IMG/VR virus record: IMGVR_UViG_3300031578_006468
Location: 1-55,660 of that record
DNA length: 55,660 nt
Strand: one strand, 5' to 3'
Source: a virus
Below, one piece after another: positions 3 to 50,394 of this stretch. The notes beneath the pieces were generated by a model, which made no database searches, had not been told where the DNA came from, and worked only from the letters and a program-made list of their open reading frames with translations. Every line of letters begins with the position of its first letter. Positions within the stretch are counted from its first letter, which is position 1. Position numbers and translations under genes: made by a program.

Positions 3-830
3 TTTGAAAAAGAAGGTGCAGTTTTATTAAGTGATACTTATGTAAACTCAAAAACTCCTTTGAAGTATATTTGTTTGAATGGGCATAACAATACAATAAT
101 TTGGAATAGCTGGCAGAGGGGCAGAAGGTGCTCTATTTGTTCTGGCAGAGAGAGAAATTCTTTTGACTTTATAGAGAAGGAATTTAATAAAGAAGGTTAT
201 AAGGTAGTTTCTAATTATTATATTAATAATAAAACTAATATAGAATATATTTGTCCCCAAGATCATAGACATAATATTAGGTGGTGTAATTGGATACAAG
301 GACAGAGGTGTTCTTACTGTGCTGGTGTTGGTAGGCTTAATATAAGTCATGTTAGAAGATCATTTGAAGATGAGTATTATGTGCTTGTTTCTGAAGAATA
401 TGTAAATAATAGTACAAAATTAAAATATGTTTGTCCAGAAGGTCATGTTGGAAGTGTTAGTTGGATTAACTGGAAAAATGGAACAAGATGTGTTAAATGT
501 TATGATCTTAAAAGGTTTGGAGAGAATAATCCTTCTTGGAAAGGCGGTATTTCCTTCGAGCCCTACTGTGAAGTTTGGAAGGATAAAGAATATAAAGAAG
601 ACATTAAAGAGCGTGACGGTAATAAATGTTTAAATTCTTATTGTAGCTCTAAAAATCCAAATGACTTAGTGATACATCATATTGACTATAATAAGAAGAA
701 TTGCAGCCCTGAAAATCTAATTACGGTTTGTAGGGCTTGTAATGGCAGTGCTAATAAAGAAAGAAATTGGCATAAGGCCTGGTATCAAGCAATAATTAAA
801 AATAGATATAACTACGGGAGGATAAATTAA
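3..830 (+). CDS. HNH homing-type endonuclease with repeated zinc-ribbon modules (5' end outside window)
   Basis: The frame is open from base 3, so the gene starts upstream of the window; the TTG at 60 is internal. Three consecutive modules of about 55 residues are visible, each with a Y-(I/V)-C-x3-H core, a W-x2-W pair and a closing G-x-R-C-x2-C (cysteine pairs near 79-141, 251-320 and 431-501). They look like zinc-ribbon DNA-binding units. A C-terminal HNH nuclease follows: NPSWKGG at about 531, RDGNKC at about 613, the catalytic core VIHHIDY at about 667, and a CRAC pair followed by N near 730-745. This architecture is typical of free-standing phage homing endonucleases, which cut alleles lacking the insertion. 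It sits directly upstream of a virion gene and carries that gene's ribosome binding site (GGGAGG) in its last codons. Nuclease identity is firm; homing activity is inferred. Confidence 0.85.
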   Translation, partial: FEKEGAVLLSDTYVNSKTPLKYICLNGHNNTIIWNSWQRGRRCSICSGRERNSFDFIEKEFNKEGYKVVSNYYINNKTNIEYICPQDHRHNIRWCNWIQGQRCSYCAGVGRLNISHVRRSFEDEYYVLVSEEYVNNSTKLKYVCPEGHVGSVSWINWKNGTRCVKCYDLKRFGENNPSWKGGISFEPYCEVWKDKEYKEDIKERDGNKCLNSYCSSKNPNDLVIHHIDYNKKNCSPENLITVCRACNGSANKERNWHKAWYQAIIKNRYNYGRIN

Positions 831-1778
831 ATGGCAATAAGTATAGATACGCAAGATTTGCTGAACTACCCTGGAAATGTTAAAAGAGTCACTGCTGATC
901 AGGAGTCCCTTGTTCCAGCCGGAAATGAAGGGGACGAGGCATTCATGCTAAGTTTTTCTACCACTGCTTATAGTGACAATGTATCTAGAACCAGAATTCA
1001 GTCATATTATATCACTAATTTTAAGGCTGGGTGGTGTAAAAGTTCTGGATTTACTGGCACTAAATTTGCTTTAGATTCTACACACAATTCTATAGAAATA
1101 AAGATAGATTCTACTGTTAGTGGTATAAGTTCTGGATATTACAGAGTTACATTAGATCACGACAACGGTGTTCCTATGGATGGTGCTGTAGTAGCAGCAG
1201 ACCTAGAAACTAAGCTAAGGGCTGTGACACTGGATACTGGTGATGCTGGCTATTCTTTGGCTTATATGAACTCGTCTGTTGAATTTTCTGGAGGTAGGTT
1301 TTGGATAGTCTCTGGATCATTAAGTGGTTATTATTCGGGAGCTAATAAATCTGCAGTTAGAGTAAGAGCATCTTCTGTAAATGATTGTTCTGAAATTCTT
1401 GGTTTTAATCTCTCAACATCCAGTGAGGTTATAGCAGCTTCGTTAGTTAAAGAAGCTTTGGTAACTACAGCTGTTTCTGGTACGGTTTCAACACAGCTTA
1501 CTATTAATCAAAATGTGGGTGCTGTAGATAATGACCGCATGCTGATTACAGATGGAACAAATACGGATTATTTTCAAATAACAAGTGTTGTTGGTAATAC
1601 TACTATTAATTTTGAGGCAGCGGCGGTAACCAATAGTTATACGGCCAGTGGTGCTAAAATACAACTTTTACGTGAACAAGACCCAGACGCTGACCCAGCT
1701 TTGTGGTTTAATGATGTGGATAAAATTACCAGACATGGTATAAAAACTATAATTAATCAGATCGACTATAGTTCTTAA
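831..1778 (+). CDS. Putative virion (tail/baseplate) protein
   Basis: 315 residues, beta-rich, with no signal peptide or membrane segment. Residues about 78-195 form a domain also recognisable in the 523-residue protein at 11925: a hydrophobic strand, then SGYYRVTL, a VAADLETKL helix, and a strand ending in SGSL. Helix patterns of this A-A-x-L-x-x-x-L sort following a VTL strand occur in phage tail proteins. Residues about 207-285 form a second beta domain around TDGTNTDYFQITSV. The start is the ATG immediately after the upstream stop codon, preceded by GGGAGG. It opens the long virion-protein run. Structural assignment rests on composition, context and the shared domain; no precise function can be given. 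Confidence 0.6.
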   Translation: MAISIDTQDLLNYPGNVKRVTADQESLVPAGNEGDEAFMLSFSTTAYSDNVSRTRIQSYYITNFKAGWCKSSGFTGTKFALDSTHNSIEIKIDSTVSGISSGYYRVTLDHDNGVPMDGAVVAADLETKLRAVTLDTGDAGYSLAYMNSSVEFSGGRFWIVSGSLSGYYSGANKSAVRVRASSVNDCSEILGFNLSTSSEVIAASLVKEALVTTAVSGTVSTQLTINQNVGAVDNDRMLITDGTNTDYFQITSVVGNTTINFEAAAVTNSYTASGAKIQLLREQDPDADPALWFNDVDKITRHGIKTIINQIDYSS

Positions 1779-1781
1779 TAA

Positions 1782-2282
1782 ATGGCTGAGTACTTATTAA
1801 GAAATAGTCTCAACCCTGGAAAAGTTATAAAATGTGCCATAACGTTCAGGCAAATAATTAACAAGGGTGAAGAAGCTGAGCCTGTATGGTTGGTAGAGCT
1901 ACGAACTTTAGAGCCACATAAGAATGGCGGGGAGATACCTCCAGTTTATGTGCACTATACTTCAGCTAGTAATTTAGATGAGGCCATTAAGGAGGCTACT
2001 GAACAAATAGCTGCACAAGTAGATTGGGGAACATTGTATGATGATGTTCGTCCTCCATTCGTGTCATATAACTTTCCAACTACAGGTTCTGACGATGTTA
2101 GTATGTTTTCTAGTTTGATACTTGATATGGAAGAGGATCTTCCTGGAACTGGTATAGATCCAGATAGTATAGAAGTTACTATCAACGGTATAGATGTTAC
2201 GGATGAGGTAGATATATATGGAACACCTTATAATTATAGGCTTAGGTGGGACCCTAGTATAAGAGTTTTAGATTATTATTAG
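1782..2282 (+). CDS. Hypothetical virion-region protein
   Basis: 166 residues. It begins three bases after the previous stop and has no recognisable Shine-Dalgarno sequence of its own (upstream bases read TTCTTAATAA), so translation may depend on coupling to the gene before it. The N-terminal half has alternating strand patterns. The C-terminal half contains a V-S-Y-N-F-P-T segment and SIEVTINGIDVTDEVDIYGT, which resembles a beta-sandwich edge. No family is recognised. Position between virion genes suggests a small tail or baseplate component. Confidence 0.6.
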   Translation: MAEYLLRNSLNPGKVIKCAITFRQIINKGEEAEPVWLVELRTLEPHKNGGEIPPVYVHYTSASNLDEAIKEATEQIAAQVDWGTLYDDVRPPFVSYNFPTTGSDDVSMFSSLILDMEEDLPGTGIDPDSIEVTINGIDVTDEVDIYGTPYNYRLRWDPSIRVLDYY

Positions 2283-2290
2283 GAGGATTT

Positions 2291-2719
2291 ATGGCATCTG
2301 TTGTAGACTTTTTTGATTTTATTTGTAATACTTTAGATATAAGATTTTTTGCTGGGTTGGCTTGTTCTGAAACATCTTTGTTTCATAATAATATGAGTTC
2401 AGAATTTATGCATTATATACCTGCTACAAATGCCCAGATAGCAGTTGGTATGGTTAATGGTGCTACACTTGCAGGTATGAAATCCGCAGTGTTGATAGGT
2501 TCTAGTAAATTACGTGGGATAGATTTTACTTTTAATATTGATAATGAGATTCCACTTCTAGTGCTTGCTGTAGGTAAAGATCAGATAGTACTTAAAAATA
2601 ATATATATAATATTGTTATGCTAGATGATTTTGAGGTAAGTTTAAATAGAATAATTAATTATATTAATACTAGGAATAAACCTGGAATTTTACTAATAAA
2701 TACAGAGGTGTTAATATGA
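2291..2719 (+). CDS. Degenerate ThDP-enzyme pyrimidine (PYR) domain protein, decarboxylase alpha-subunit-like
   Basis: 142 residues matching the N-terminal (PYR) half of phosphonopyruvate decarboxylase or the alpha subunit of sulfopyruvate decarboxylase. The family order is FFxGVPDSLL, then xIIAANEGxAxxxAxG, then LxNSGLGN, then IPxLLLxGxRG. Here the same order reads FFAGLACSETSL (19-30), HYIPATNAQIAVGMVNG (41-57), LIGSSKLRG (68-76) and EIPLLVLAVG (86-95). The family's NEG motif, whose glutamate activates the cofactor aminopyrimidine, reads N-A-Q (47-49), so the catalytic Glu appears to be Ala. It is preceded by AGGAGG and its last bases overlap the next gene (ATGA, 2716-2719), so the two halves are translationally coupled. 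Homology is read from remembered family patterns; loss of activity is inferred. Its role among virion genes is unknown. Confidence 0.65.
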   Translation: MASVVDFFDFICNTLDIRFFAGLACSETSLFHNNMSSEFMHYIPATNAQIAVGMVNGATLAGMKSAVLIGSSKLRGIDFTFNIDNEIPLLVLAVGKDQIVLKNNIYNIVMLDDFEVSLNRIINYINTRNKPGILLINTEVLI

Positions 2720-3330
2720 AACGTTATTCTGCAGTAAGGATTTTAATACAGGCTTTGTCTGAGGAAGATGTGGCTATATTTATAGGAGAATCACTTAGTG
2801 CTGAGGCTTTTCTTTATGATCGGCCCGGCAATGTTTATTTATGTGATTACAATGATTGTATTAGTTTAGGTTTAGGTATAGCAATGTGCTCAGATAAGAA
2901 TGTATTTATTTTTTGTGAAGATTCATATTTTATTAGAAATATAAGTGAGTCTTTGCAGATAGGAGTAAGTAGATGTAAGAATATTTTTTTAGTTATTTTG
3001 ATAAGTGGTTATTATTTAAATATTGGAAAACACCCTACTATAACTAAAAGTATAATGTCTTTAAATGGTTTGTTGTTTAATATGGGTTTTATGGTGCATG
3101 ATTATAAACGTCATTTTAAAAACTCCAAGAACCCAGTAAAAGAGATAAGGGCAATATGGAGTAAAATTAATGGTCCTATGGCTGTTCTTCTTGATGTGGA
3201 TAGTGGGGTTTTAAAAACTAGTTCTGAGAGTATTATACCGTATAAAGACTCTTTGAAGAATCTTAGTAGTTTTATTACTAGAAACCAAGATTCACCTATC
3301 CTCTTTGAGGATGTAGTTAAGGAGGAATAA
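2716..3330 (+). CDS. Degenerate ThDP-binding (PP) domain protein, decarboxylase beta-subunit-like
   Basis: 204 residues matching the C-terminal, diphosphate-binding half of the same decarboxylases. It starts like the family (MKRYSAVRILIQAL) and continues with an SLGLGIAM helix (50-57) and the strand KNVFIF. The Mg-ThDP motif should be GDG followed some 25-30 residues later by an Asn pair. It is replaced by E-D-S (68-70) and L-I-S-G (95-98); only the Asp is kept. The following YYLNIGKHPT (99-108) aligns with the family's xxDSxGGQPT, and GPMAVLLDVDSG matches the late strand that closes the family fold. Start and stop are coupled to flanking genes (ATGA at its start). Together with the preceding gene it looks like a split pseudo-enzyme, possibly kept as a structural or ligand-binding module. 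Confidence 0.65.
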   Translation: MKRYSAVRILIQALSEEDVAIFIGESLSAEAFLYDRPGNVYLCDYNDCISLGLGIAMCSDKNVFIFCEDSYFIRNISESLQIGVSRCKNIFLVILISGYYLNIGKHPTITKSIMSLNGLLFNMGFMVHDYKRHFKNSKNPVKEIRAIWSKINGPMAVLLDVDSGVLKTSSESIIPYKDSLKNLSSFITRNQDSPILFEDVVKEE

Positions 3331-3333
3331 TAT

Positions 3334-4596
3334 ATGTCTTATGAAAATGTACGTCTGAGAAAACAAAATTTTGCCATGGTTGATGGTTATTTTTGGATGG
3401 TAGATGAGGATACTGATAGTATAGTGGTTAAAACTGATGACGGCACATTGGCTTATTCATATCCATTGGATACTACTATATCTCAAACAGTTAAATCTTT
3501 AGAGTATGATGGTAGAAATATATGGACTTTACGTTCTACTGGTACGGATCAAGTTACTATAGACCGCTGGTATATAAACAACTATGTTTGTACAAAAAGG
3601 AATAGTTTTAATTTTGTTCCCGGTCCCTCACATAAATATGATGTAGATACATTTGCTGTAGAGCATTATCATATAGCTTTCTCTGCTGACGAGGCTGCTG
3701 GCCAGTCCATACTAAGTATAACTGATGGTTCTAAAATATTAAGTGGTTATACTATAGTTTTAGGACCAAATATCCTTGGTCAGATTGAAGAAAAAACTGT
3801 CAGTTCAGCTTCATCAGGTTCTGTACAAATAAATGGTTCGACAACATATGAGTACTCTAGTGGAGATCCTATAAATTTTTATAAAAGGCTTTGGTTATTT
3901 AATAACTACAACGGTATAGACGCTACTACAGGGGCACTTTATTGTGCAGATGCTTATACTGGATCAATAATTACTAAATATGCCGGAGGTGCTTTTACTG
4001 ATATTGCTGCTTGCACATTTTTTGATGTTCCAAGGTATGCTTTAAATAGGGCTGTAGCTCCTGGTACAATAGAGCCTAAATATAACTCTTTGTGTTATAT
4101 AAAAAATACAAATATGATATTTTTAAATCCTGACGATTTAAATACTAGCTATGGTTCTATGACTATGGATAATATAGAATCTGATCAGGCAACAAATATT
4201 ACAGTTTATGATTTGACCATAGAAGGTACAAATGTATATAGATTACAGCGTAAAGCTACATATTATGGGGCAACATCTACTTTTGCTGATAATACGTATA
4301 ACTATCAACTTTCATCGTTAAATTCATTTATTACAAGTATAAGTCTTAGAGCTGACCCAGCAATATTACCAGCCAACGGTGTTAATCCGTCTGTTATAAC
4401 AGCTATAGTAAAAGATCAGTTCAACTTACCAGTACAACAAAAAGCAGTTTATTTCACTGATGATGACCCTTATGAGTTCGGTGGTATAACTACTTCACCA
4501 GCTAATACTAATGGAGATGGTGTGGCAGAAACTACATATATTGCTGGAAATACAGCTAGGGAAGTTAGAATTACGGCCACGGCACAACAAGATTAA
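3334..4596 (+). CDS. Virion surface protein with beta-propeller-like N-region and C-terminal Ig-like (Big_1) domain
   Basis: 420 residues. Residues 1-320 contain repeated strand clusters (SLEYDGRNIWTL, TGALYCADAYTGSIITKY, NITVYDLTIEGTNVYRLQRK), like a beta-propeller or fibre shaft. Residues about 328-419 form a typical bacterial Ig-like/invasin Big_1 domain: SLRADPAILPANGV, ITAIVKDQFNLPV, a G-x-x-T-T-S-P loop, then NGDGVAETTY and VRITATAQ. It is a paralogue of the next protein (shared FAVEH, GTNMxF and YRLQRK/YKLQKK blocks in the same order). AAGGAGG lies 9-10 bases before the ATG, within the previous gene's last codons. Likely a baseplate or fibre component displayed on the particle. Confidence 0.65.
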   Translation: MSYENVRLRKQNFAMVDGYFWMVDEDTDSIVVKTDDGTLAYSYPLDTTISQTVKSLEYDGRNIWTLRSTGTDQVTIDRWYINNYVCTKRNSFNFVPGPSHKYDVDTFAVEHYHIAFSADEAAGQSILSITDGSKILSGYTIVLGPNILGQIEEKTVSSASSGSVQINGSTTYEYSSGDPINFYKRLWLFNNYNGIDATTGALYCADAYTGSIITKYAGGAFTDIAACTFFDVPRYALNRAVAPGTIEPKYNSLCYIKNTNMIFLNPDDLNTSYGSMTMDNIESDQATNITVYDLTIEGTNVYRLQRKATYYGATSTFADNTYNYQLSSLNSFITSISLRADPAILPANGVNPSVITAIVKDQFNLPVQQKAVYFTDDDPYEFGGITTSPANTNGDGVAETTYIAGNTAREVRITATAQQD

Positions 4597-7414: not shown

Positions 7415-8068
7415 ATGGCAGAGCCAACAGTAACGTTCGGATTTAATCATACAGGTACGGATGTACCATGGACATATACAGGTTCAGGAGATCCTGAGGT
7501 TGGTGGGTGGAAAACTATAACACCTACCGATGATCTTTTGGTTTTCACGGGCGGCGGAATATTAGGCAGCTTATCAATTCCAACATGTGCTAGTGGTACA
7601 AGAGATGCAACAATAAGACCGAGTGCAACCTCGTATGTAATACCCCAAACCTATGTTGAAAAAGATATGATGTACCATGCACACTTAGTAGGCTATAATG
7701 TGAATAGATATGCTATGGGAGTTAGGATAGATGGTACTATGACCTCAGATCTCTACTTGGAAGCTTGGGATGATTTTAGTTTTAGTACAACAAATTTAGA
7801 AATATTGACTGGTACAACAAATAGCAGTAGTGCTAGTTTTATAAATGCTATAAGGACCACACTAGTAGAACCGCCATGGAGTCCAGGGTGGAACGGTTCG
7901 GATGTTGGGGCTGCATATTTGAGAGGGACAGATTATAGAATAGGTTTGAATAACACATCTGTAATAACGGATAGTACTGTATACTACAATATTTATATTC
8001 GTCTAGAGACAGACTGTTCTACGTTCCATGTTTTCCCGGTGATCGCATTTAGGTATCTCTATACGTAA
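7415..8068 (+). CDS. Putative virion protein
   Basis: 217 residues with a strong AGGAGG site. No named family is recognised. The C-terminal part shares a block with the protein at 8591: L-x-A-W-D-D followed by S-T, and a terminal F-x-Y-x-Y-T. This suggests a common C-terminal domain or assembly tail. The sequence is rich in Thr, Ser, Gly and aromatic residues, as expected for an extracellular phage beta protein. A structural role is inferred from composition and context. Confidence 0.6.
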   Translation: MAEPTVTFGFNHTGTDVPWTYTGSGDPEVGGWKTITPTDDLLVFTGGGILGSLSIPTCASGTRDATIRPSATSYVIPQTYVEKDMMYHAHLVGYNVNRYAMGVRIDGTMTSDLYLEAWDDFSFSTTNLEILTGTTNSSSASFINAIRTTLVEPPWSPGWNGSDVGAAYLRGTDYRIGLNNTSVITDSTVYYNIYIRLETDCSTFHVFPVIAFRYLYT

Positions 8069-8103
8069 TATACTTATTTTATAAATAATAAAAGGAGAAG
8101 GAT

Positions 8104-8577
8104 ATGCAAAAAATGAATATATCAGGCAAAGAACTACCAAATTTTAGCAACCTTGATGCAGTAGATGGTACTATTTTTGGTAGGCACAATAAGGTTAAAA
8201 GCATTAATCCGTATAAATGTAGATTTGTAGCTACGTACCCAGACGGTTCTGTAGTAAAAGGTTTAGATTTTTTCACAACTGGTTGGGATAATATACCACA
8301 AGGGTTGTCAAAACTAAGGTATGAACTTAGTACTGGGCATGTTATAGAAATACCAAAATACAAGGCTTATTTGCCCATGGTGGAGGTTTCTTTTGGTATA
8401 GACGGGTCTAGGGTATTCCACTCTATAAACGTCCATTGTCTGACCGATAGAGAGGTTGTAGTGTATAAGGTAGTTCTAAGACAAGACCAAATAGTTCCAC
8501 AAAAGATAGGAGATGTTATAATGAGTAAGTTACCGCTTCCGAAAGATATGAATAAATCTTGGAAGTACACAAGCTAG
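8104..8577 (+). CDS. Hypothetical protein in tail gene cluster
   Basis: 157 residues, preceded by GGAGAAGG. Visible features are a strand-rich middle (YKCRFVATYPDGSVVKGLDF) and a second strand group (VEVSFGIDGSRVFHSINVH). The N-terminus is polar and the C-terminus basic. An Asp-Gly-Ser hairpin recurs twice (YPDGSVV, GIDGSRV). No family assignment. Composition differs from the long adhesins (more Lys, Val and Pro, fewer Ser/Thr), so it may be an assembly or connector protein rather than a fibre. Confidence 0.55.
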   Translation: MQKMNISGKELPNFSNLDAVDGTIFGRHNKVKSINPYKCRFVATYPDGSVVKGLDFFTTGWDNIPQGLSKLRYELSTGHVIEIPKYKAYLPMVEVSFGIDGSRVFHSINVHCLTDREVVVYKVVLRQDQIVPQKIGDVIMSKLPLPKDMNKSWKYTS

Positions 8578-8590
8578 GGGGTAATTAAAT

Positions 8591-10138
8591 ATGGCTGTTA
8601 CTATTACATCAAAATTTTATCAAGATAGTACGTGGAAAGACATTTCTAAAGTAGTTTTCACAAGTCCTAATATAGATAATCCGGCTACAGCCGGAACAAG
8701 ATCTCATATTTTACCGGGCGAGGGAGATCTGGGCTTGTGGTATGAGGATACGTCTAATATGTACAGAATAGAGCCTTTTCAAGGAGTTACATCTTCAAGT
8801 TACTATAACTATGATATGATGAATCTAACAGAAATAGATCTTAATTCATTATCAACATCAGTAACAGTAACTGGTACTATTTATAACAGAGATATTCTTT
8901 ATGAATATATTAAAGATGGTTTGGGGTATACTGCAACTGGTTATTTACCTTTTGATATGGATGGCCCATCCAGCCCCGTTACTGAAACTCGTGTTAAATT
9001 ACAATATAGTAATGAAGAATCACACTCGAACAGTAAAGGACATTTACCATATATATATGTGGCTGAGATAGTGGCGCCAGGAGCTACTACTGTATCAGTT
9101 TATGATCTTTCTACTACTTTTGCGGTCCTTGATTCCTATAATAAGGCGTGGGTGGTTAATCAGATTGTAGGTGAAGAAGAATGTTATATTGATATAGACT
9201 TTGATAAGTCATATAAAATTACACGAGTATATATGAAGGGGCAATATTCTTATGATATTTCTGGTGGTGTTTATTTCAATAGAAGGTTTTTTGGGCATTA
9301 TAAAATACTTGGTAAGTTGGCTATAGATGATGAGTGGGTTGAAATTTATAGTGGGGCTAATACAACAAGTATAGATACCACCATCTTCTTGACAACAAAC
9401 GACAAATTTTTTAAATATTATAGATTACTTATACTAGACAACACTGGTTTAAGCACATCTTCGCCAGCTTTTAATCAGTCTTACTATGCTCTATCATATC
9501 TTCAATTTTCTATATATGATTACAATGAAATTCCTACTAGAACAAAACCACTATATAACTTCAAAACTAATGGTACTGCAGATATAATTTATATAGACAG
9601 TGTAACTAGTAATGGAGATTATACCTATGATTGTAGTATAGATTCCACCACCGGCTCTGGTATTGTAGCTGTTAGCGGGACACTTTATGGCTGGGGTTCT
9701 TTTACTGGGACTACTGATTATAATACTCAGGATAGTATAGTATTTGAAACAACAGTGGGCGAAGCATATAATTGTAGGTTAACTGCTTGGGACGATGTTA
9801 CTCATAGTACATTACTTAATGAACTGATTCAGGGGGATAAAGTTAGGGTTTCTGCTTTAGCTTTTTGTTGCTCGAATTCTAAATTAGAACCTAATGAAAG
9901 TTTTGATCCTAAACCGATAAACTTTGTCCATGGGCCTGTACAGAATAGAATTTTAAAAGGTAATACTGTAGATGTTACCACTAATCTTTATTATGGTGAT
10001 TTTGATATGGTTTACAGGTATGAGGACGATGTTTATGGTGATTTTTTAATGTTTAAACCTATGCTTTATGGAATGGATGATAGCATATCCTATGGGGTGC
10101 ATGATTATATAATAACTTTCCATTACTCGTACACGTAA
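8591..10138 (+). CDS. Virion protein with F5/8 type C (discoidin)-like domain
   Basis: 515 residues. Residues about 200-315 look like a galactose-binding/discoidin fold: CYIDIDFDKSYKITRVYMKG, then NRRFFGHYKILGK, WVEIYSG, and KYYRLLILDNTG, ending in LSYLQFSIYDYNE. This gives the family's order of edge strand, loop and closing strands. The C-terminal region shares the L-x-A-W-D-D block and the F-x-Y-x-Y-T terminus with the protein at 7415. It is preceded by GGGGGTAATTAAAT. Members of this fold bind carbohydrates or other surface ligands, so a host-surface-binding tail component is plausible. Confidence 0.65.
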   Translation: MAVTITSKFYQDSTWKDISKVVFTSPNIDNPATAGTRSHILPGEGDLGLWYEDTSNMYRIEPFQGVTSSSYYNYDMMNLTEIDLNSLSTSVTVTGTIYNRDILYEYIKDGLGYTATGYLPFDMDGPSSPVTETRVKLQYSNEESHSNSKGHLPYIYVAEIVAPGATTVSVYDLSTTFAVLDSYNKAWVVNQIVGEEECYIDIDFDKSYKITRVYMKGQYSYDISGGVYFNRRFFGHYKILGKLAIDDEWVEIYSGANTTSIDTTIFLTTNDKFFKYYRLLILDNTGLSTSSPAFNQSYYALSYLQFSIYDYNEIPTRTKPLYNFKTNGTADIIYIDSVTSNGDYTYDCSIDSTTGSGIVAVSGTLYGWGSFTGTTDYNTQDSIVFETTVGEAYNCRLTAWDDVTHSTLLNELIQGDKVRVSALAFCCSNSKLEPNESFDPKPINFVHGPVQNRILKGNTVDVTTNLYYGDFDMVYRYEDDVYGDFLMFKPMLYGMDDSISYGVHDYIITFHYSYT

Positions 10139-10215
10139 GATTTGGTGGAAAAACTTAAAAGATGCAGCGACTCTTATTTGATATTAAAATACTATTACTA
10201 AAAAGGATTGTTTTT

Positions 10216-10220
10216 AGGAA
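10216..10220 (+). promoter_or_regulatory. Ribosome binding site deciding the start at 10229
   Basis: AGGAA lies 8 bases before the ATG at 10229. The only Shine-Dalgarno-like bases near the alternative TTG (AGGA at 10204-10207) abut it with no spacer, so the ATG is preferred. Confidence 0.6.
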
Positions 10221-10228
10221 ATTTAACT

Positions 10229-11794
10229 ATGCCTGATGATACAAGTAAGGTTTGGGTAGACGTATCTTTTTCAGAAACTCTTGAAACAAATAGAGACGTA
10301 TTAGTATCTTTAGATCTTGGTTCGGCGGAAAATATTGGAGGATACTCCATACCAGTTATATATATTGCTGAGGAAGTTGAATATGACGAATATGATGTAG
10401 AGGTAGAATATTATCAAGAAACTTATGCGATTAATGAACTTAAAATTGTACCAAATGAATATTTTTATTTTCCTCCGCCCTTAAATGATGCTGTTATAAC
10501 GTCACTAGTAGAACTCAGTCTTGGAGACGATACTATAAGTGGAACCAACAATACAACTGCAGTTTATGAGACTGGTTATAGTTCCATTTCAGGCTCTATT
10601 GATAGTAGTGTGACTTTTATAGGTGGAAACAACTTTCCGGGTTTTTATGAAACCCCTGTTTACTTTTGGAATCAGCCCCCAGCTAGCGGAATATTAGAGT
10701 ATTGGGTAAACCATACTAACTTTTGTGGTAGTTACAGTAGTGGTCAAACACCAATACCTACACATGAGGCAGAATTAAGTTATTTAGCTCAATATGGCAC
10801 AACAGCCTCTGGTATAACCCCTGCAGCTATAGATATAATAGTTGATATAACCTTTGCTGGATGGGTAGATTGGATTTTTTATGCTGATGTCTATTCAACT
10901 ATTTTACACTTTGATGATTATTTTAATATTGAGGCTAATACTATAATTGGTGGTCTTTTGCCGCTTAACCTGGATGTTACAGCAGCAGCTTTAACTGTTA
11001 GTGGAACTACTTGTGACCTTTATTGTACTTTATTAAGTAATGATTATATAGATGCTGAAATGGAAGTAATTCCTGGCGGAATTGGGTATATAAGAAATGA
11101 TGTTTATTCGGCGTTAGAAAAAGTTGTGGGTATAGCTTTAAATGTGGATTTATACTCATTAAAAATCTCAAACTTTTCTTTAGATGAGGGAGAATATACA
11201 ACAGCGTCTGGATTTATATCAGTAGATATTACTGATGATGAATGCCCTGTCTCTACATCAGGAACATACTTTATGGTGGATGACCAACAAGTACCAGTAA
11301 CTTTTTCACCAATATCCGATGGTTATAGAATGTTTTATAACCCTGACGATGATTTTTCTTCTATAGAGGGGCCAGCTATTTTTACTGTCCATGCTGAGAA
11401 TACGTGTGATAAATATTTAGAGGTAGATTACTATTTAACTTTTGGATATTTAGTTGAATATTTTAATCATCCTGGTTTGAATACCAACATAGATTATGGG
11501 TTTAATAATAAAGTAGTTGTTAGAGTAACTGCTGAAGACTACGCAAGTTGCCCACAACTAAGTTCTTTAGCATGGGATTTTGAAAGTAAAGAATTATATA
11601 ATAATGATTTAAGTGCTAGCATAAATGGTAGATTCCATGCTTATGACTATGAAGAATTAAATGCTAGTATAAGTCCAATAAGTACGGCGTATTTTTATGG
11701 TAAGGAGATCAGTGTAGTAGTTAATGCTAAAGATTTTGCTGGTAATCAGATGGAGCCTTTAGTCTTGGTTTACAGAATTGAAAATAAACCATAA
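10229..11794 (+). CDS. Virion protein with C-terminal Ig-like domains
   Basis: 521 residues from the ATG at 10229. An upstream in-frame TTG at 10208 would add seven residues, but AGGAA at 10216-10220 is spaced 8 bases from the ATG, which decides the start. The N-terminal part is acidic (EEVEYDEYDVEVEYYQE). Residues about 320-521 show Ig-like strand patterns, including SLKISNFSLDEGEY, DQQVPVTFSPISDGYRM and a final ISVVVNAKDFAGNQ, close to the C-terminal Ig-like region of the 921-residue protein. It also holds two short DLSASING/ELNASISP units resembling the repeats of the protein at 39749. A tail or fibre protein is inferred. Confidence 0.6.
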   Translation: MPDDTSKVWVDVSFSETLETNRDVLVSLDLGSAENIGGYSIPVIYIAEEVEYDEYDVEVEYYQETYAINELKIVPNEYFYFPPPLNDAVITSLVELSLGDDTISGTNNTTAVYETGYSSISGSIDSSVTFIGGNNFPGFYETPVYFWNQPPASGILEYWVNHTNFCGSYSSGQTPIPTHEAELSYLAQYGTTASGITPAAIDIIVDITFAGWVDWIFYADVYSTILHFDDYFNIEANTIIGGLLPLNLDVTAAALTVSGTTCDLYCTLLSNDYIDAEMEVIPGGIGYIRNDVYSALEKVVGIALNVDLYSLKISNFSLDEGEYTTASGFISVDITDDECPVSTSGTYFMVDDQQVPVTFSPISDGYRMFYNPDDDFSSIEGPAIFTVHAENTCDKYLEVDYYLTFGYLVEYFNHPGLNTNIDYGFNNKVVVRVTAEDYASCPQLSSLAWDFESKELYNNDLSASINGRFHAYDYEELNASISPISTAYFYGKEISVVVNAKDFAGNQMEPLVLVYRIENKP

Positions 11795-19628: not shown

Positions 19629-20022
19629 TTTATTATATGACTTTATAAAATGTGATGATTGTGGCCAACAATTAGAACTTGACCCATCAAGCACTATGAA
19701 TGACTACCTAGAATACTTACCTTTAAATACTATAAATCTAAGTGATAGTGTGGATTCTATAATAGGAAGATATTTAGTGTATAAATGTTCATCATGTAAT
19801 AGTATTTATAAATTTACTTATAAAGAGATAGAGAAAGAATTACGTAAAAGAATAACTGAAAAACTTTTAATGCTTATGGCCAGATCTGTTTTAACAAAAA
19901 ACATATCGTTACATGATAAGTTTTTTATATATTGTGGTAAATGTGGTGGAGTAGATGGTTCCGGTAGTTGTACAATATCTGTATTTAATAACTGTGATAT
20001 AAAAAGGTTTCCATTACAATGA
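19621..20022 (+). CDS. Small zinc-ribbon protein
   Basis: 133 residues, overlapping the giant gene upstream by 8 bases and the next giant gene by 4 (ATGA). Two metal sites are visible: C11-x2-C14 with C56-x2-C59, and C105-x2-C108 with C117 and C125. A charged helix (YKEIEKELRKRITEKLLMLM) lies between them. No family is recognised. Its position between two enormous, overlapping virion genes suggests a stoichiometric partner or assembly factor for one of them. Confidence 0.6.
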   Translation: MDSLLYDFIKCDDCGQQLELDPSSTMNDYLEYLPLNTINLSDSVDSIIGRYLVYKCSSCNSIYKFTYKEIEKELRKRITEKLLMLMARSVLTKNISLHDKFFIYCGKCGGVDGSGSCTISVFNNCDIKRFPLQ

Positions 20023-23000
20023 GTTATAATGTTCTAAATTTTGATGGTAAAGTTGTTTCATCTAACAGGTGCCTACATGACTCAAACATAGGTTATGAGG
20101 TTGATTTTTCTGTTAATGGTGAGGTTGACGGATGGGTTTATTTTAATGGTATTCATACTTATGGTTGTTGGAATAACTTTTTGTTTGGGACATTATATGA
20201 CACACAAGCTGTTATTGGCCGCCATGAACCATTTGTACCAACTGCTGCCGACAGTTTTTATGTTATAAGGCTTGTTATGAAGTTAGTTTTAAAGGAGAGG
20301 GTTGGGGTACAGATTGTACCGTCTACTGGAAGAGTAGCTTGGAGAACATTAAGCAACCCATTGTGGGCTAATGATAAGCAGTATGATTTTGAAATATTTA
20401 ATGATGGTGAGTGGCATACTTATTTCATAAACTTAGCTGGAGAGCAGTGGTGGCAAGGAGATGTAAATGACCTTAGAATTTATCCTATTCTGGAAAATGG
20501 TGTAAGTGGTGATGAATTCTATATAAGAACTCTTGAAATTATCTCTACAGAAAATTATAAGTGTCTAAAAGTATCATGTGATTATTATGATTATTATACA
20601 CAGGATTGTGGTGGGATAGGTGAGAGAGGTTATTGTAAATCACGTCAATTACCAGCATATACTGACCAAGGTAATGTTTTTTCATTTGCAGAAACAAAAC
20701 TATATAGTGTTGTTGAAGGAGTCAATGACACCTTACTTGTAAATATAAATGGTTATGGTTTAGAAAATATTGTATTAGAGCCTATAAGTAGTTGCTCTGG
20801 AAACCGCATGGCTAGGATTTTGACAAAAGAAATATCCAAACTAGATGTTGGTGGGTATGCTGAATGTGATGTTGAGTATACTGATATGGGAGAATTTATA
20901 ATATACTCTGGAGTTTATGCTGACGATAGCACAGTTTCTATTGGAGATACCCAGTTAGCCAGAGATTTAAGCTTTTTTGATGATACCGGAACATATATAT
21001 TTACAAGACAAAGCGGTAGGTACCCAGCATCTGGGTTTATCCCTTACTCCTCATTCAAAATTAAATCCCATCAAATACAAACTTTATTAGATTCTAGTTC
21101 GGATACTGAATTTTATTTTAATCCTTTTATTTACAACGTGGAAGGAGGCCGCCGTGATTGGTTGAATATGGGTCTTGGCGCCCCTACTAAAGATATGAGA
21201 GCCAGTGTAAATGATGATAGTGGACTAGTTAATAGATATTATAATCAGATAAATAATGCTGGAAAAACTATAATTGATTTTACTCACCCATTTAATGCTA
21301 GTGGTAGAATAACTAAAATTTATGCTGCTGTTACTTTAGACACTTTTACGTCCGGCGATTGGGAACAACGCGATACATATGATGAGAATAGAAAAGAAAC
21401 ACAGCTTTCTACAGCTAAGATTATGTTTTTTAGGCCAAAAAAAGATGGTAGTATTAGAGTCCTACCGTTTGAGCTAGATATATTGGATAGAAACCACACC
21501 GCCGGCAAGCTTTATTCTGCAGTTCAGGAATATGTAGAAATGGATTGTGATATTTTTGTAAACAAAGGCGACCTAATAGGAATTTACAATGCTAATGTTT
21601 ATAAAGGCAGGTCAATTTCTGGTAAAGAGGTTGATGCTCTTTATTATCATATTAATGGTAAAGCAGTTGGGGTTTTAGATTTAGATACCCCTACTGGCCA
21701 AGGCTCTGGTGGGTTGCTATTGTACGCTTGTAGTGAGCAAAAACAAAATAGACTGGTACTAGATGTTGACCTTGGTAAGAGAGTCAACGTTAGAAGTGTG
21801 AAGATAGACGGGGAATCAACTGAAGAATTTTTGGATTATAATATAGCTAGATGTTTAGATATGGATTGGGAAGTAGATTTGTTTGGGGGTGACCATACTA
21901 CTGGTTATATAGTTACATATAGGCCTTTAGTTAAGGCTTATTACAATCATCCCAACCTGTATTACGGTAAGAATTGCTTAAATGATGGTATAAAAGTAGT
22001 CTCTGATGGTATATCAGCCGATAGTTTTAGTGTTAATTATGGTAATAGCGAGTCTGGCTATTACAATGTATTACACCAAAAAGACGGTGGTAAAGGGGTA
22101 GTACCAGTCGGAGCTAAATATTTTCAGGTAAATGGTGATTGTGAGTGGATAGGTGTATATCTACATGCTGGAAAAAGCGGCCCGTTTGTTATGCCGGATT
22201 TTCAAGATGATCCTATAGCTTTTACAATATTTTTTCCTTTTGGTAAGGAAAAACTTATATACAAGTCTAAAATATACTTTAAGGAAAGGTATAATTTCAG
22301 AAGTTTTGGGTTGTCAACATATAAAGGGAGTTACTATGTAAATGGTAATGCTGACGATCCCAGATTTGAGTATATTCCTTATAGAACTGATGGAACTAAT
22401 ACTCCTTGGACTAGAATTTCCTTAGATGGTCTTGATTATTTTCCAGAGGATGTTAATGCTTGGGCAGATTTGAACTTATACTTGGCCGACAATCCGTGTA
22501 AAGGTCATGTCGAGATAGAGACCGTAAGGGTAGATATACATAAATATGACTATGCTTTAGATTACTTTAGTGATTATGCTTATGAATTTTCTTCTACCAT
22601 AAGGATAACTAACAACGATCAGTTTACACAAGCCACTGCTGTAGATTGGAATACATTAGAACATCAATGGGAACCTTTGCCTACCTCAGGATTTAGATTT
22701 TACTGTAATCATCATCAATCTACAAAAATATGTGAATTTGAAGTTTTTTGCGTAGCTGAAAACATTGAGTCTTCAATAGCTGGCTCCATAGATGTGGCAT
22801 TTTCATCTTATGGTGATTATTGGTGGCCAACAAAGTACTCAAGTACTAGGAATAGTATAACTGCTTTTATAGGGGATACTCCTAGATACATAAATATAGT
22901 TGTAAAACCAATAACGGAGATTAATTTAAAAGATATATTTATAGACGTTAGCTACGAAGATGTTTTTATGGGGGATAAAGGTTGTCAATACTCTTTTTTT

Positions 23001-26000
23001 CCTGAGGAAACTAAGTTGGGTGTTGATAATTTACCACAACTAGTTAATTTTAAAAATGTCTATGGAAAACCACACAATTTATTTGTAGATATAGTTAATA
23101 ATTTGTTGCTTGATAGTGGTGCTGTATTTTTTAGTAAAATGAATAGCGGCCTGTCAATTGTTAATCCTGAGATAGGTGCTGATGCTTATTATAAAAAACA
23201 ACCAAACTATCCTGTGCTTAATTATGAAAGTAATGTTGCTATAAATTGCCCAGTATACTCTTTAAAAAATTTAGCAGTTGGTGCGGAGGCGTGGTTTTCT
23301 CATAATAAAGAGTATTCTTGGAGATATTGGGGCCAACTAGTTGATGGTAAAGATATAAATTTTTCTAATGTACCAAATACCAGAATTACTACAATGAATG
23401 TCCCAACGTTGATTAGAAGTAAGTGGTGGAAAGTTGGGGTTTTTGATCCAAGAGTGTCCTCCAAAATAAGAGAAATGCGAATTTATTTTCAAGGTGAAGA
23501 GATACTAGGTGTAAATTTTTATCATAGTAAAGGCCAAGACGCCTATAATTATCCAAACGAGGATACTGCTGTACATTTGAATAATATATTGGTTGATGGT
23601 AGTTATTATGTTATGACTGGTAATCAGTATATAGGGTTTGAGTTGCCTTCTATACAATCATTTGATCAGATAGTGATGTACCACGACTCTTTACTTGAAT
23701 ATGAGAATTCACATGCAAAAGCTGGAGTTGACAGCTCAACAATGCTTCTTATACAAGGGGATGGTGATACTTACCAAACCAACACTATAGTTGATTATAG
23801 TTATTATGAGCATGCAGTGTCAATAGTTGGAAACGGTATATACTGTGATGAGGAAGTATATGATGTAGGGAATTATACATTCAATAGAACTTTTGATAGT
23901 TCTGAAGCAGAAATTGTATCTGATGATTTTACAACATTTAGTGGTACAATTTGGACAAGTCTTATAAATACAACCATAGTAGATGGTAAGTTAAACGTAA
24001 CTAATAATACACAAGCTGGCCAGGCGGTTACAAATGATTATTTTTATGATAATTTTGATGTAACAATAGACTTAAATATAGAAGGAATAATAGATGATGA
24101 GGGCTGGGCCTGCCAAATGGAACTAGTTACTGCTAGTGGAACTAAAGCTAGAGTAGGTAGGAAATATACATCAGATAATACTGTTCAATTATTCTTTTCT
24201 AGTGTGTTTGATGGTATTATTTGGGAAGAGTTAGAGACTTATATTACCAATGATTTTTATGCATTAAAGCTTAGAATTTTACGTGACGGACTAATAACTT
24301 ATTTTTATGGTTGGGATAATGATGTTTTTTGGATATTTTTAGGAAGCTCCGAGGTATTAGGAACATCCCCCGTCAAAGTTAGACTAGTGTCTGATTATAT
24401 TGCACCTACTTCTGGGGTGACTACTGCAAGATTCGACAATTTTTATTTAATTAATACAGCACGGTGGCACGAAGAGTCAAACTATGGCTCAACTTTTACA
24501 TGTGTAAGTGGTACTTATCCTAATGGTTGGGCTTATTACTATGATATAGGGTGTTCAAATCGTAGTAATGACTCTGGCTATAAGACGCCAAAAGTATTTG
24601 AGGTTCAAGATTATCCAATAGACCATAAGTATACTTTTAATATGGAGTTTGTTTTAAATGTAGATAACTTTAAAAATAGTTCTGGCACAGAGTTAGATTA
24701 TTATAGTGATATTGGTATAGCTGTGGGTATTTTTGGACATCACATAGCTACTTATGGATATTTTCCATATCAAAGATATTTTACTGGCGCCCAGGTTTAT
24801 TTTTGCCCGACTAGAGTAGGTATAGCTATAAAAAATGATTGGAATAATCTCAGTGAAACTTATGTAGCACTTGAGCCCAGAGATGGTCCTTATTATTGTA
24901 GGTTTACCGGTGACGGTAATGGTAATTATAGTTGTTATGTGTGGACAGATGCGTTGGATGGGGCAAATCAAGTAGCTAATTTTTCTTTAACTAGTTCTTA
25001 CTTTTGGCAAGGAGTTAGAGTAGGTATTGGTAGTTGTTATTCTTATGTAACTTATACTGCTGTACCTCATGCTCTTGGTTGGATATCTGATTTAAACTTT
25101 ACATGTAATAAAGTTTTGGGTACGGTGTTCGGACAAAGTGCTATAAGATTTAATGCAGTTCCAGATGAAAAAATTTTAGTTGATTATGACAACAACCCAA
25201 ATTGTAATATATTTAAAGATGGTTTTGATTTTGATACTAAAAGATTTACTATAGATTTCTACATAAAGTTTGCTACTTTATTAAACGATAGTAGTTTTAC
25301 TCCTATACATATAATTAAAAGTTGGCATGAAGACCAGATATTTAGTGTTGGTACTCCTATACAGTACCCATCCTCTTGGATTTTTACTATAGAAAGAACG
25401 GATTATTTAACATACTATTGGAGATTTTATGTTAACGTTGGTGGTTATTGTAGAAGGGTAGTAAACTACTCTTTTACTCCAGAAATGCATAGGTGGTATC
25501 ATTTTTATCTCTGTAGAGGGCCGGCCAACGGTCAAATTGCTGATGTAGTATTATTGAGAGATGGTCATCAGATTTTTTATACTAATGATGACACTCAGCT
25601 GGCTCAAGAAATACTTTATTCTGGCCAGGATGTTTCTATAGGGCAGAATCTAGATGGTTGGCTAAGGGAAGTTAGAGTGTCTTCTGACTATACGCTTGGT
25701 GGTGGTCGCTGTGAAACTTCTAATACTAACTATTTTACAACCGCCAAATCAATACCTACAGCCCCATATGAGCATTATTATACATTATCTTTTTTTGAAA
25801 GTACAGATAATATACATTATGGTAAGGTTATGGATGTAGATGTTTTATTCGATAACAGTTATAGTTATCATGAAGAGTTTAGTGTTTGGAGTGAAAATTA
25901 TTATTCATACTTTGCTATAGACTTAGGCCAACGTTTTAATTTGGGGTTAGTTAGAAGCTACCCAGTAGATACAGCATTAGCTTTTTCAATTAATAGTAAT

Positions 26001-37709: not shown

Positions 37710-38711
37710 ATGTTAGCTATGTATATTAGTGCTAATCAATTTAAAGTAAATAATGACCTTACTGCTGATTTTACAGCGGGGCGAAGAATTAAAGCTGATT
37801 GTGGTAGTGATGGTGTAAAATACTCTACAATAGTTTCTTCATCATATTCCTCACAATATACTACTGTAACTATTGATGAAGAGGTCCTAACAGCTAACTT
37901 GATAGATATCCTCTATGGTATAATAAACGTAGGGCCAGAAGGATCTTTTCCAGAACATGTTCATGATGACACTGAGGGCCAGGGCGGTCAAATTAGTTTG
38001 TCAGATTTAACCAACAAAAGCTTTTTGAGTTTGACAGACAGAAGTTTTTTAAATTTAACCGATACCCCCTCTTCTTATGACGAGGGTAAATATCTAAGAT
38101 CTACTGTTGATGGCACTGAGTGGGTAACAGTCTCAGGAAGTTCAGCAGCCACTACGATCTTAGAACTTACTGACACACCTAGTTCTTATGATGAAGGAAA
38201 GTACCTCCGTTCAACAGCTAGTGGTATCGAGTTTGTAGATGTTAGTCAATATACTGAAGCAACTATAATAGCTGATAGTGATTTGTTTGTTCTTAGCTCG
38301 GCTGGTACTGATAAAAAACTTACGGGTGCTACATTTAAAGCCATATCTGGAACTTATAGGGAGGTTTTAGTATCCACAAGTGGTATTAATTTAACAGCTG
38401 ATCAGTGTCGTAGTTCTATTTTAAATAATGATGGTCAGCAAACAGAAAACATAGCCTACCTTCCAGATTGTGAAGAAGGTTTGAGCTCTACAGTAGAGAT
38501 AACTTCTGTTTCTGGTTCTTTTCATTTGAAACCAAAATCTAGTGATAAAATATTTTTAGATGGTGAGGAGCTAGATAATGGAGATAAGGTTAGTATAACA
38601 AGTCCAGTAAGTGGTAATTCATTTTCGTTTTATGCTGTTAAAAAGGGCAGCGTCTATTCTTGGAAAGTTGTTTCAGGTCCAAATACTACAGTAATTGATG
38701 GGGGTACATAA
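37710..38711 (+). CDS. Tail fibre protein
   Basis: 333 residues. It carries the typical fibre repeat LTDTPSSYDEGKYLRST followed by G-x-E-(W/F) at residues 116-138 and 153-175, plus a degenerate SLSDL/FLSLTD/FLNLTD run at 96-118. Such (L)TDTP-SSY-x-G-K-x-L repeats are common in long tail fibres. An HVH at 83-85 resembles the metal-coordinating HxH found in trimeric fibre tips of other phages, but here it is single. The C-terminal 100 residues form a compact beta region ending SWKVVSGPN. AAGGAGG lies 10 bases before the ATG; a second in-frame ATG lies three codons later. Confidence 0.75.
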   Translation: MLAMYISANQFKVNNDLTADFTAGRRIKADCGSDGVKYSTIVSSSYSSQYTTVTIDEEVLTANLIDILYGIINVGPEGSFPEHVHDDTEGQGGQISLSDLTNKSFLSLTDRSFLNLTDTPSSYDEGKYLRSTVDGTEWVTVSGSSAATTILELTDTPSSYDEGKYLRSTASGIEFVDVSQYTEATIIADSDLFVLSSAGTDKKLTGATFKAISGTYREVLVSTSGINLTADQCRSSILNNDGQQTENIAYLPDCEEGLSSTVEITSVSGSFHLKPKSSDKIFLDGEELDNGDKVSITSPVSGNSFSFYAVKKGSVYSWKVVSGPNTTVIDGGT

Positions 38712-49249: not shown

Positions 49250-49606
49250 ATGGATTGTTTAATGTGTGGTAATCCTAATGCCTTGTTGGTTTTTACTGAA
49301 GTTGTACATTGTGATTGCTGTAGCGAGCCTAATGAGCTTATGTACTATGCCTGTAGAAATTGTGGTATTATTTGTACAGTTTTGGATGGAGAGCTTATAG
49401 ATAGCTCGGAAGAGCTTCCACTACCCTTTAAGACTATAATGCAAGAGCTGCTGGATAATGCTGAGTATGATTTAAGTGATATATGTACAGAAAAAACACC
49501 ACTAGAGATTATGCATAAATGTATAAAGTGTGAAACATTATCCTATGAGATAAAACCAAATTTATATCATTGCCCAGACTGTGGTTTTGAGTGGGAGATT
49601 AGATAG
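49250..49606 (+). CDS. Multi-zinc-ribbon protein
   Basis: 118 residues with several CxxC pairs: C3/C6, C21-D-C-C24, C35/C38, C91/C94 and C108/C111. The last four form a classic zinc ribbon (HKCIKCETL to [13 protein letters not shown]). An acidic helix ([20 protein letters not shown]) links the two metal clusters. The start is chosen from the AAGGAG at 49238. Its stop overlaps the next start by one base (TAGTG). No exact family; nucleic-acid or protein binding is inferred from the ribbons. Confidence 0.65.
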
Positions 49607-50394
49607 TGAAAGATTATTACGAAATGTTAGGTGTTAATCGTGAATCTTCTAAGGAAGATATTAAAAAAGCTTATAGAAGATTATCTATGAAACACCATCC
49701 AGATAAAAATCCAGGCAATAAAGAGGCTGAGGATAAGTTTAAAGAGATAAACGAAGCGTATTCTACACTTTCAGATGATGATAAACGTAGATCATATGAT
49801 AATCCAAATCCATTTGACAATATAATGAAGGGCTTTTCTGGATTTGGTAGTTTTAGACAGCAACCACGTAGGCCAAATATTAATGACCCTAGGCAGGGAC
49901 AAATTATAGGTATAGAGGCTAAAATCCCTCTAAAAATATTTTTGTTTGGTGGTGTTTTTAGCACGTCTATTAGCTATGAGCAAGGTTGTGCTGTTTGTAG
50001 TGGGAAGGGTTTCAGTGAAAGCTCAGAGTGTGACATGTGTCACGGTGGTGGTTTCATACAGCATGTAGAGAGAAGACCTGGATTTATGTCTACATCGTCA
50101 ACCCCTTGCCCTAAATGTAGGGCAATGGGAGTAATAGGTAAGAATTCTTGTAGTGAGTGCTCTGGTAAAGGTACTGTCAAAGTAGATAATAAAAATTTTA
50201 GTTTTAATATAGATCAAAATCCAAACATAGGTACTAGAGTTATTCTTAGAGGTGAGGGCAGAGCCGGTCTTAATGGTGGCCCCAATGGTGATGTTATACT
50301 GGTTGTTTCTGGTATACAATTTCCAGACTTAAATAAACTTAATACAGAAAGTTTGGAACAATTTAAAGGTATTATTGAGGAGTTGGATGCTTAG
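49606..50394 (+). CDS. dnaJ: DnaJ (Hsp40) co-chaperone
   Basis: 262 residues, starting at GTG with GGGAG 8 bases upstream. The J domain (1-66) keeps H31-P32-D33 in MKHHPDKN, needed to stimulate DnaK. Four zinc repeats are complete: C128-x2-C131, C142-x2-C145, C168-x2-C171 and C182-x2-C185 ([32 protein letters not shown]). The C-terminal substrate-binding region (about 75 residues, including [14 protein letters not shown]) is shorter than in bacterial DnaJ (about 375 total). Located among replication genes, it might help assemble or remodel the phage replisome through host DnaK. That use is inference; identity is firm. Confidence 0.92.
50377..50380 (+). promoter_or_regulatory. Ribosome binding site deciding the RuvC-like start
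   Basis: GAGG at 50377-50380, 6 bases before the ATG at 50387, favours that start over the TTG at 50375, which overlaps this site. Confidence 0.55.

Follow-up and report, generated by a model that had tools for sequence, protein, structure and literature searches.

A phage tail-block gene pair of ThDP-enzyme descent with graded loss of the active site

Two coupled genes in the tail gene block of a phage form a pair that is a member of the ThDP superfamily by descent and fold and that lies, by score, motif and partners, outside the phosphonopyruvate/sulfopyruvate decarboxylases. The pair was found in the window, the whole stretch of DNA analysed here (55,660 nt; IMG/VR record IMGVR_UViG_3300031578_006468, positions 1 to 55,660), and this copy, judged by its sequence, appears to be a pseudoenzyme. 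Our favoured reading, to which we give slightly less than an even chance, is that the pair has been neofunctionalised into a mostly non-catalytic ThDP-fold protein whose present role would be that of a late binding or assembly protein associated with the tail. Few cofactor enzymes are understood as well as the ThDP enzymes, and to our knowledge no ThDP-fold pseudoenzyme of phages is known; the open-access literature searched, itself only part of all literature, gave no earlier description of such a phage pair. Here, one syntenic family spans a copy whose cofactor motif is intact and copies without it, and the order of the losses, together with the point at which catalysis turned dispensable, can be read and tested in small proteins.

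Homology, fold and active site of the window pair

The alpha gene (2291..2719, plus strand; 142 aa) encodes a PYR-domain-like protein, degenerate and shortened, that is related to ComD/RhiE and to the N-terminal half of AepY. The beta gene (2716..3330, plus strand; 204 aa), whose start overlaps the alpha stop by four bases (ATGA), encodes a PP-domain-like protein, likewise degenerate, that is related to ComE/RhiF and to the C-terminal half of AepY. Both open reading frames lie where a sequence-only reading of this DNA had placed them, with the lengths it gave. Against NCBIfam, window alpha matched TIGR03845 (sulfopyruvate decarboxylase alpha, E=1.1e-5) and window beta matched TIGR03846 (sulfopyruvate decarboxylase beta, E=3.7e-10), at 25.4 and 40 bits, far under the curated cut-offs of 147.95 and 221.5 bits, respectively; the highest score among the phage members, 77.5 bits, is also under the curated family cut-off. 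Profiles built from six phage copies hit the corresponding chains of RhiEF, namely 9iz3_A for alpha (E=3.5e-8) and 9iz3_B for beta (E=1e-8). AF2 models were computed from six-row alignments, with alpha and beta as single chains, and reached pLDDT values of 90 and 80. The top Foldseek structures were 9iz4_A/9iz3_A for alpha (9iz4_A, E=9.1e-8) and 9iz3_B for beta (E=5.6e-9). The pair thus contains a PYR and a PP domain of alpha/beta fold in that order, and the proposal that the two genes correspond to the PYR and PP halves of a decarboxylase-like pair is supported by significant profiles and by best Foldseek matches to the matching RhiEF chains.

The same reading had named the lack of a ThDP match, or a match to an unrelated Rossmann-like family, as grounds for abandoning it; profiles and Foldseek favour ThDP enzymes. 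That an unrelated Rossmann-like pair came to look like ThDP enzymes by chance is extremely improbable. Single-sequence scans of Pfam and PHROGs gave no match for window alpha or beta, and the first PDB phmmer matches of window alpha were methyltransferases (E about 0.01), both of which speak for such a pair; yet each half independently matches the corresponding subunit of one two-subunit enzyme, by profile and by fold and with the gene order preserved, and the syntenic beta protein of the related record L024 passes Pfam TPP_enzyme_C. The independent matches of both halves led us to reject chance likeness.

Active-site residues were compared with five canonical sequences, comprising two split pairs and three AepY proteins. 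Around the catalytic Glu column (N-E-G), window alpha reads T-N-A-Q, with Ala at residue 48 (2432..2434, plus strand). In beta, residues 68-70 (2917..2925, plus strand) are E-D-S in place of G-D-G, the canonical DGDGA being aligned with C-E-D-S-Y and Asp69 retained, while residues 96-97 (3001..3006, plus strand), which include the position of the second Mg ligand, are I-S in place of D-N. The Asp-to-Ser spacing of 28 equals the canonical Asp-to-Asn spacing. All of the changes predicted from the sequence (N-A-Q, E-D-S and I-S, with the Asp kept) were recovered in these alignments. Window alpha is also devoid of the QNSGLGN motif and of the entire RG...EPQH..MG loop. A working ThDP enzyme is expected to carry GDG-X(about 26)-N(N) in the PP domain and a catalytic Glu in the PYR domain; the window has E-D-S...I-S and Ala48 instead. 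Some active ThDP enzymes, such as glyoxylate carboligase, do without the catalytic Glu, so its absence alone is not decisive. Taken by sequence, the window pair shows what is expected of a pseudoenzyme: a conserved fold, missing catalytic residues and purifying selection.

Family members and gradient of active-site loss

A direct search gave one relative, L001, at 51% identity. Further members were retrieved through the downstream and one upstream neighbour gene, which gave 15 related viral records including L001; a short contig beyond these 15, L030, stops before the place of the pair. A neighbour gene also led to L042, a 3.5-kb contig in a Parcubacteria MAG of the bacterial genome collection. 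The pair is present in 12 of these 16 sequences (the 15 viral records plus L042), which together with the window makes 13 pairs: window, L001, L004, L005, L006, L007, L011, L012, L016, L019, L022, L024 and, as the thirteenth, L042. In L042 an HNH endonuclease gene (L042:1255-2100) splits alpha from beta. The binning of this contig with a Parcubacteria MAG is a weak host hint and possibly a mis-binning. Four relatives (L015, L017, L020 and L028) carry the neighbours and no pair, and in L007, L016 and L019 the pair directly follows the 315-aa-type neighbour gene rather than the 166-aa-type gene. Because it is missing in four relatives and occupies two slightly different sites, the pair is not indispensable to the tails of the group as a whole.

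Each record bearing the pair gave a single TIGR03846 match, which led us to reject a second, canonical copy elsewhere in these phages. Neither the window proteins nor the neighbour gene had a match in INPHARED, a pattern search of the bacterial genome collection gave no close relative, and two more viral scans with sub-alignments recovered no further family member. The only low-E-value INPHARED match of L024 beta was MT836947, a bacterial phosphonate operon that is not phage-like. This record (MT836947.1, our L040) is labelled Bacteriophage sp. in GenBank and looks bacterial, with YidC-like, PEP mutase/cytidylyltransferase-like, AepY and aminotransferase genes.

Along the family, the active site is lost in steps. 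L024 retains both the G-D-G...D-N cofactor motif and the catalytic Glu. Its beta protein passes Pfam PF02775 (TPP_enzyme_C) with 40.4 bits against a cut-off of 21.9, and its alpha protein matches PF02776 (0.0026); these two matches root the phage family in true ThDP enzymes. L011 and L012 read G-E-G...D-N and L022 reads N-D-G...A-T, all with the Glu, which is also kept in L005, L006, L007, L019 (motif EDY..VT) and L042, where the first glycine and the Asn are gone. In the window, L001, L004 and L016, the Glu is gone as well as the cofactor motif. The GDG...DN signature is thus complete in L024, partial in L011 and L012 and lost in the other 10 copies, and the Glu is absent only in copies already without the cofactor motif. 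The degenerate active site noted in the earlier reading is confirmed for the window; it is not a fixed property of the pair, since the lineage forms a gradient in which L024 keeps every one of these residues and 9 of the 13 pairs keep the Glu. The QNSGLGN and RG...EPQH..MG motifs of alpha are absent from all 13 pairs, the loop being deleted. Throughout the family the first metal-ligand position is acidic (11 Asp, 2 Glu), and the second is N in 3 pairs, S in 6, T in 3 and C in 1, a pattern given which a residual metal or cofactor site may persist. In a tree with canonical enzymes, the canonical branch joins beside L024, with modest support for the inner nodes. Parsimony on this tree requires a minimum of three Glu losses, and every position of the cofactor motif other than the acidic one must have changed twice or more.

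Both frames are open in every pair. The sequence-only reading had argued for coding constraint from an open frame in one genome, which is weak evidence; the 13 intact pairs provide firmer support. Alpha and beta average 34% identity versus about 53% for the two neighbours, showing that the pair evolves faster. Second codon positions are the least variable, and dN/dS between the window and L001 is near 0.39 for alpha and 0.20 for beta, rough values since dS is near saturation. Fold-supporting columns stay (e.g. alpha G57; beta G54, A56, G124 and G153), and pocket columns are lost. Moreover, at least 11 of the 13 phage copies agree at 23 positions that most canonical enzymes do not conserve; seven of these are invariant in all 13 (alpha C12, F20, M35 and P44; beta G24, S85 and C87). 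These phage-specific positions argue against a mere relic and suggest that a new function was already in place in the common ancestor, L024 included.

Alignment and a pattern search also delineated a C-terminal extension of beta (3208..3327, plus strand), which in several relatives contains a (T/S)(S/A)(L/M)(F/Y)VPP-like stretch not seen in canonical enzymes; in the window copy this region has diverged (SPILF). The TSLFVPP-like stretch is found at the beta C-terminus of L005, L006, L011, L012, L022, L024 and L042 and is a possible docking peptide. When a VPP-like motif was sought in the other proteins of these loci, it was present in beta only.

Tail gene block and candidate roles

Upstream of the pair in the window lie a conserved 315-aa gene (831..1778, plus strand), found at the same place in related phages with or without the pair and duplicated in L007, and, directly 5' of alpha, a conserved 166-aa gene (1782..2282, plus strand; 62% identity to the L001 copy) that also occurs in relatives without the pair. 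Directly 3' of beta is a conserved gene (3334..4596, plus strand; 79% identity to the L001 copy) with a C-terminal Big_1 (bacterial Ig-like) domain (PF02369, E=4.2e-10), whose product is probably of the adhesion or fibre type. Neighbouring genes in the window encode large proteins matching Big_1, DUF2341 and, weakly, F5/8-type-C; a PHROG tail match lies at 37710-38708. The same neighbour block surrounds the pair in all 13 cases, with genes mostly tightly packed or overlapping. In L007 the 315-aa-type and Big_1-type genes are each duplicated (L007:4415-7473 and 7986-10487), and the pair sits between the 315-aa-type copies. Near the pair, HNH-type genes are inserted among the tail genes, at sites that differ between the two phages (window 60-830, L001:13405-14028). 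The tail/fibre block of the window also includes a 2,992-aa ORF (20019-28997). Elsewhere in the window, a DnaJ-like gene with a J domain and a zinc-finger-like region (49606-50394) lies in a phage replication block, adjoining RecA/UvsX-, DnaB-, primase- and sliding-clamp-like genes.

Distal-tail genes usually sit downstream of the tape measure. In the L001 record a tape-measure ORF runs without interruption for about 8,640 aa and ends about 7.5 kb upstream of the pair, which places the pair in the block downstream of the tape measure. The giant frame of about 8,640 codons (L043/L044, G001 4085-30046) matches the PHROG tape-measure with an E-value of 1.7e-57. Giant frames upstream of the tail block were also seen in G003 (L045/L046, about 8,053 codons) and G007 (L047/L048, about 8,085 codons). 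The claim of a tail-gene context is thus borne out by the Big_1 neighbour downstream and by the tape measure of a syntenic relative. A promoter/terminator scan gave nothing above shuffles, and no promoter belonging clearly to the pair was seen. None of the 15 related records, some of which are fragments, contains PEP mutase, in agreement with the earlier remark that no metabolic partner is nearby, and a class-V aminotransferase match was obtained in 1 of 11 records, about 60 kb from the pair. Neither of the expected pathway partners, PEP mutase and AEP transaminase, was thus found nearby in these partly fragmentary records. An intact phosphonate or coenzyme M pathway gene was ruled out by motif loss together with the absence of PEP mutase.

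We propose that the ancestor was a ThDP-dependent pair resembling phosphonopyruvate/sulfopyruvate decarboxylases, which would have entered the distal-tail block of long-tailed phages. The pair would first have taken on a role with no need for decarboxylation, since the substrate-side motifs are missing even from the copy that has decayed least. Decay of ThDP binding and of the catalytic Glu would then have followed independently in several lineages, leaving the window pair as a pseudoenzyme. An alpha-beta complex like that of RhiEF probably still assembles. Because the pair is encoded with tail genes, its role is most likely late and tail-associated, and the selected property would be a protein (or small-ligand) surface and not catalysis. 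That the active site wore down stepwise while both proteins were kept suggests that the present job of the fold needs no original chemistry. A more specific version, which we regard as possible if somewhat doubtful, is that the tail module of very long-tailed phages took up the pair as a component of the particle, either structural or binding a receptor or the host, the relatives representing successive stages of the conversion, with the cofactor site intact at one end and wholly lost at the other. If so, they would form a natural series of enzyme-to-virion-protein conversion and, with the pair in the particle, a clean case of a metabolic enzyme turned virion part. Against the favoured tail-associated role, the absence in four relatives and the faster evolution fit an accessory protein equally well, and the residues at the two metal-ligand positions would allow a residual metal or cofactor site.

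The same absence, the two slightly different sites and the fast evolution are what host conflict would produce, and the fold is that of a subunit of an oligomeric host enzyme class. The pair could accordingly be host-directed, non-catalytic cargo acting on a host ThDP enzyme by binding or poisoning it (e.g. by mixed subunit assembly) or on another host target, its tail location being incidental. We consider this unlikely: all 13 pairs occur only in the same tail block, mostly packed or overlapping and with no clear own promoter, and since even L024, the least derived copy, is only about 28-38% identical to cellular enzymes, co-assembly with host subunits is not an obvious possibility.

An altered working enzyme or ligand binder, whose pocket holds a metal with ThDP, a thiamine derivative or another anionic ligand, is likewise given a low probability. 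The invariably acidic first metal ligand with N, S, T or C at the second, the Glu in nine copies, the intact GDG..DN of L024 and the L024 beta score above the TPP_enzyme_C cut-off all speak for it, and L024, L011 and L012 may still be ThDP binders. The window, however, is without the Glu, both GDG glycines, the Asn, the QNSG motif and the EPQH loop, and at least three independent losses of the Glu imply that this residue is not needed. Progressive loss of active-site residues, patchy presence among relatives and evolution faster than that of the neighbours would also characterise a relic in decay, that is, an acquired metabolic pair without use awaiting deletion. This is quite improbable, as stop codons would be expected at a mean identity of about 34%, whereas all frames are intact, codon positions carry a purifying signal and new lineage-specific invariant residues occur in all members. 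We retain, tentatively, the reading of a late tail-associated binding or assembly protein.

Comparison with known two-domain ThDP enzymes

The closest known system is RhiEF, the heteromeric phosphonopyruvate decarboxylase of Bacillus subtilis ATCC 6633 (PDB 9iz3/9iz4; review PMC12141560). As in the phage pair, two small subunits, PYR-like then PP-like, are encoded by separate adjacent genes, and RhiEF is the best fold match for both halves. RhiEF is active and binds ThDP at the heterotetramer interface, whereas the window pair, part of a tail operon, is missing the Glu, GDG, DN, QNSG and EPQH elements. The sulfopyruvate decarboxylase ComDE (TIGR03845/TIGR03846) likewise has split genes and provides the best curated profile for each half, but the phage pair scores far under the family cut-offs, has lost the motifs and stands in a tail context. 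AepY, the single-chain phosphonopyruvate decarboxylase of aepXYZ operons, contains both domains in the same order and is among the best plasmid matches of the L024 copy (about 28-30% identity). In contrast to the phage pair, AepY is fused, has intact motifs and is encoded beside PEP mutase and/or AEP transaminase. The ThDP-dependent alpha-imino acid decarboxylase AzcBC (PDB 9u8q-s), among the next-best fold matches, is also a split PYR/PP pair; unlike the phage proteins, it is, going by its PDB title, an active ThDP enzyme, and it is not part of a phage tail block.
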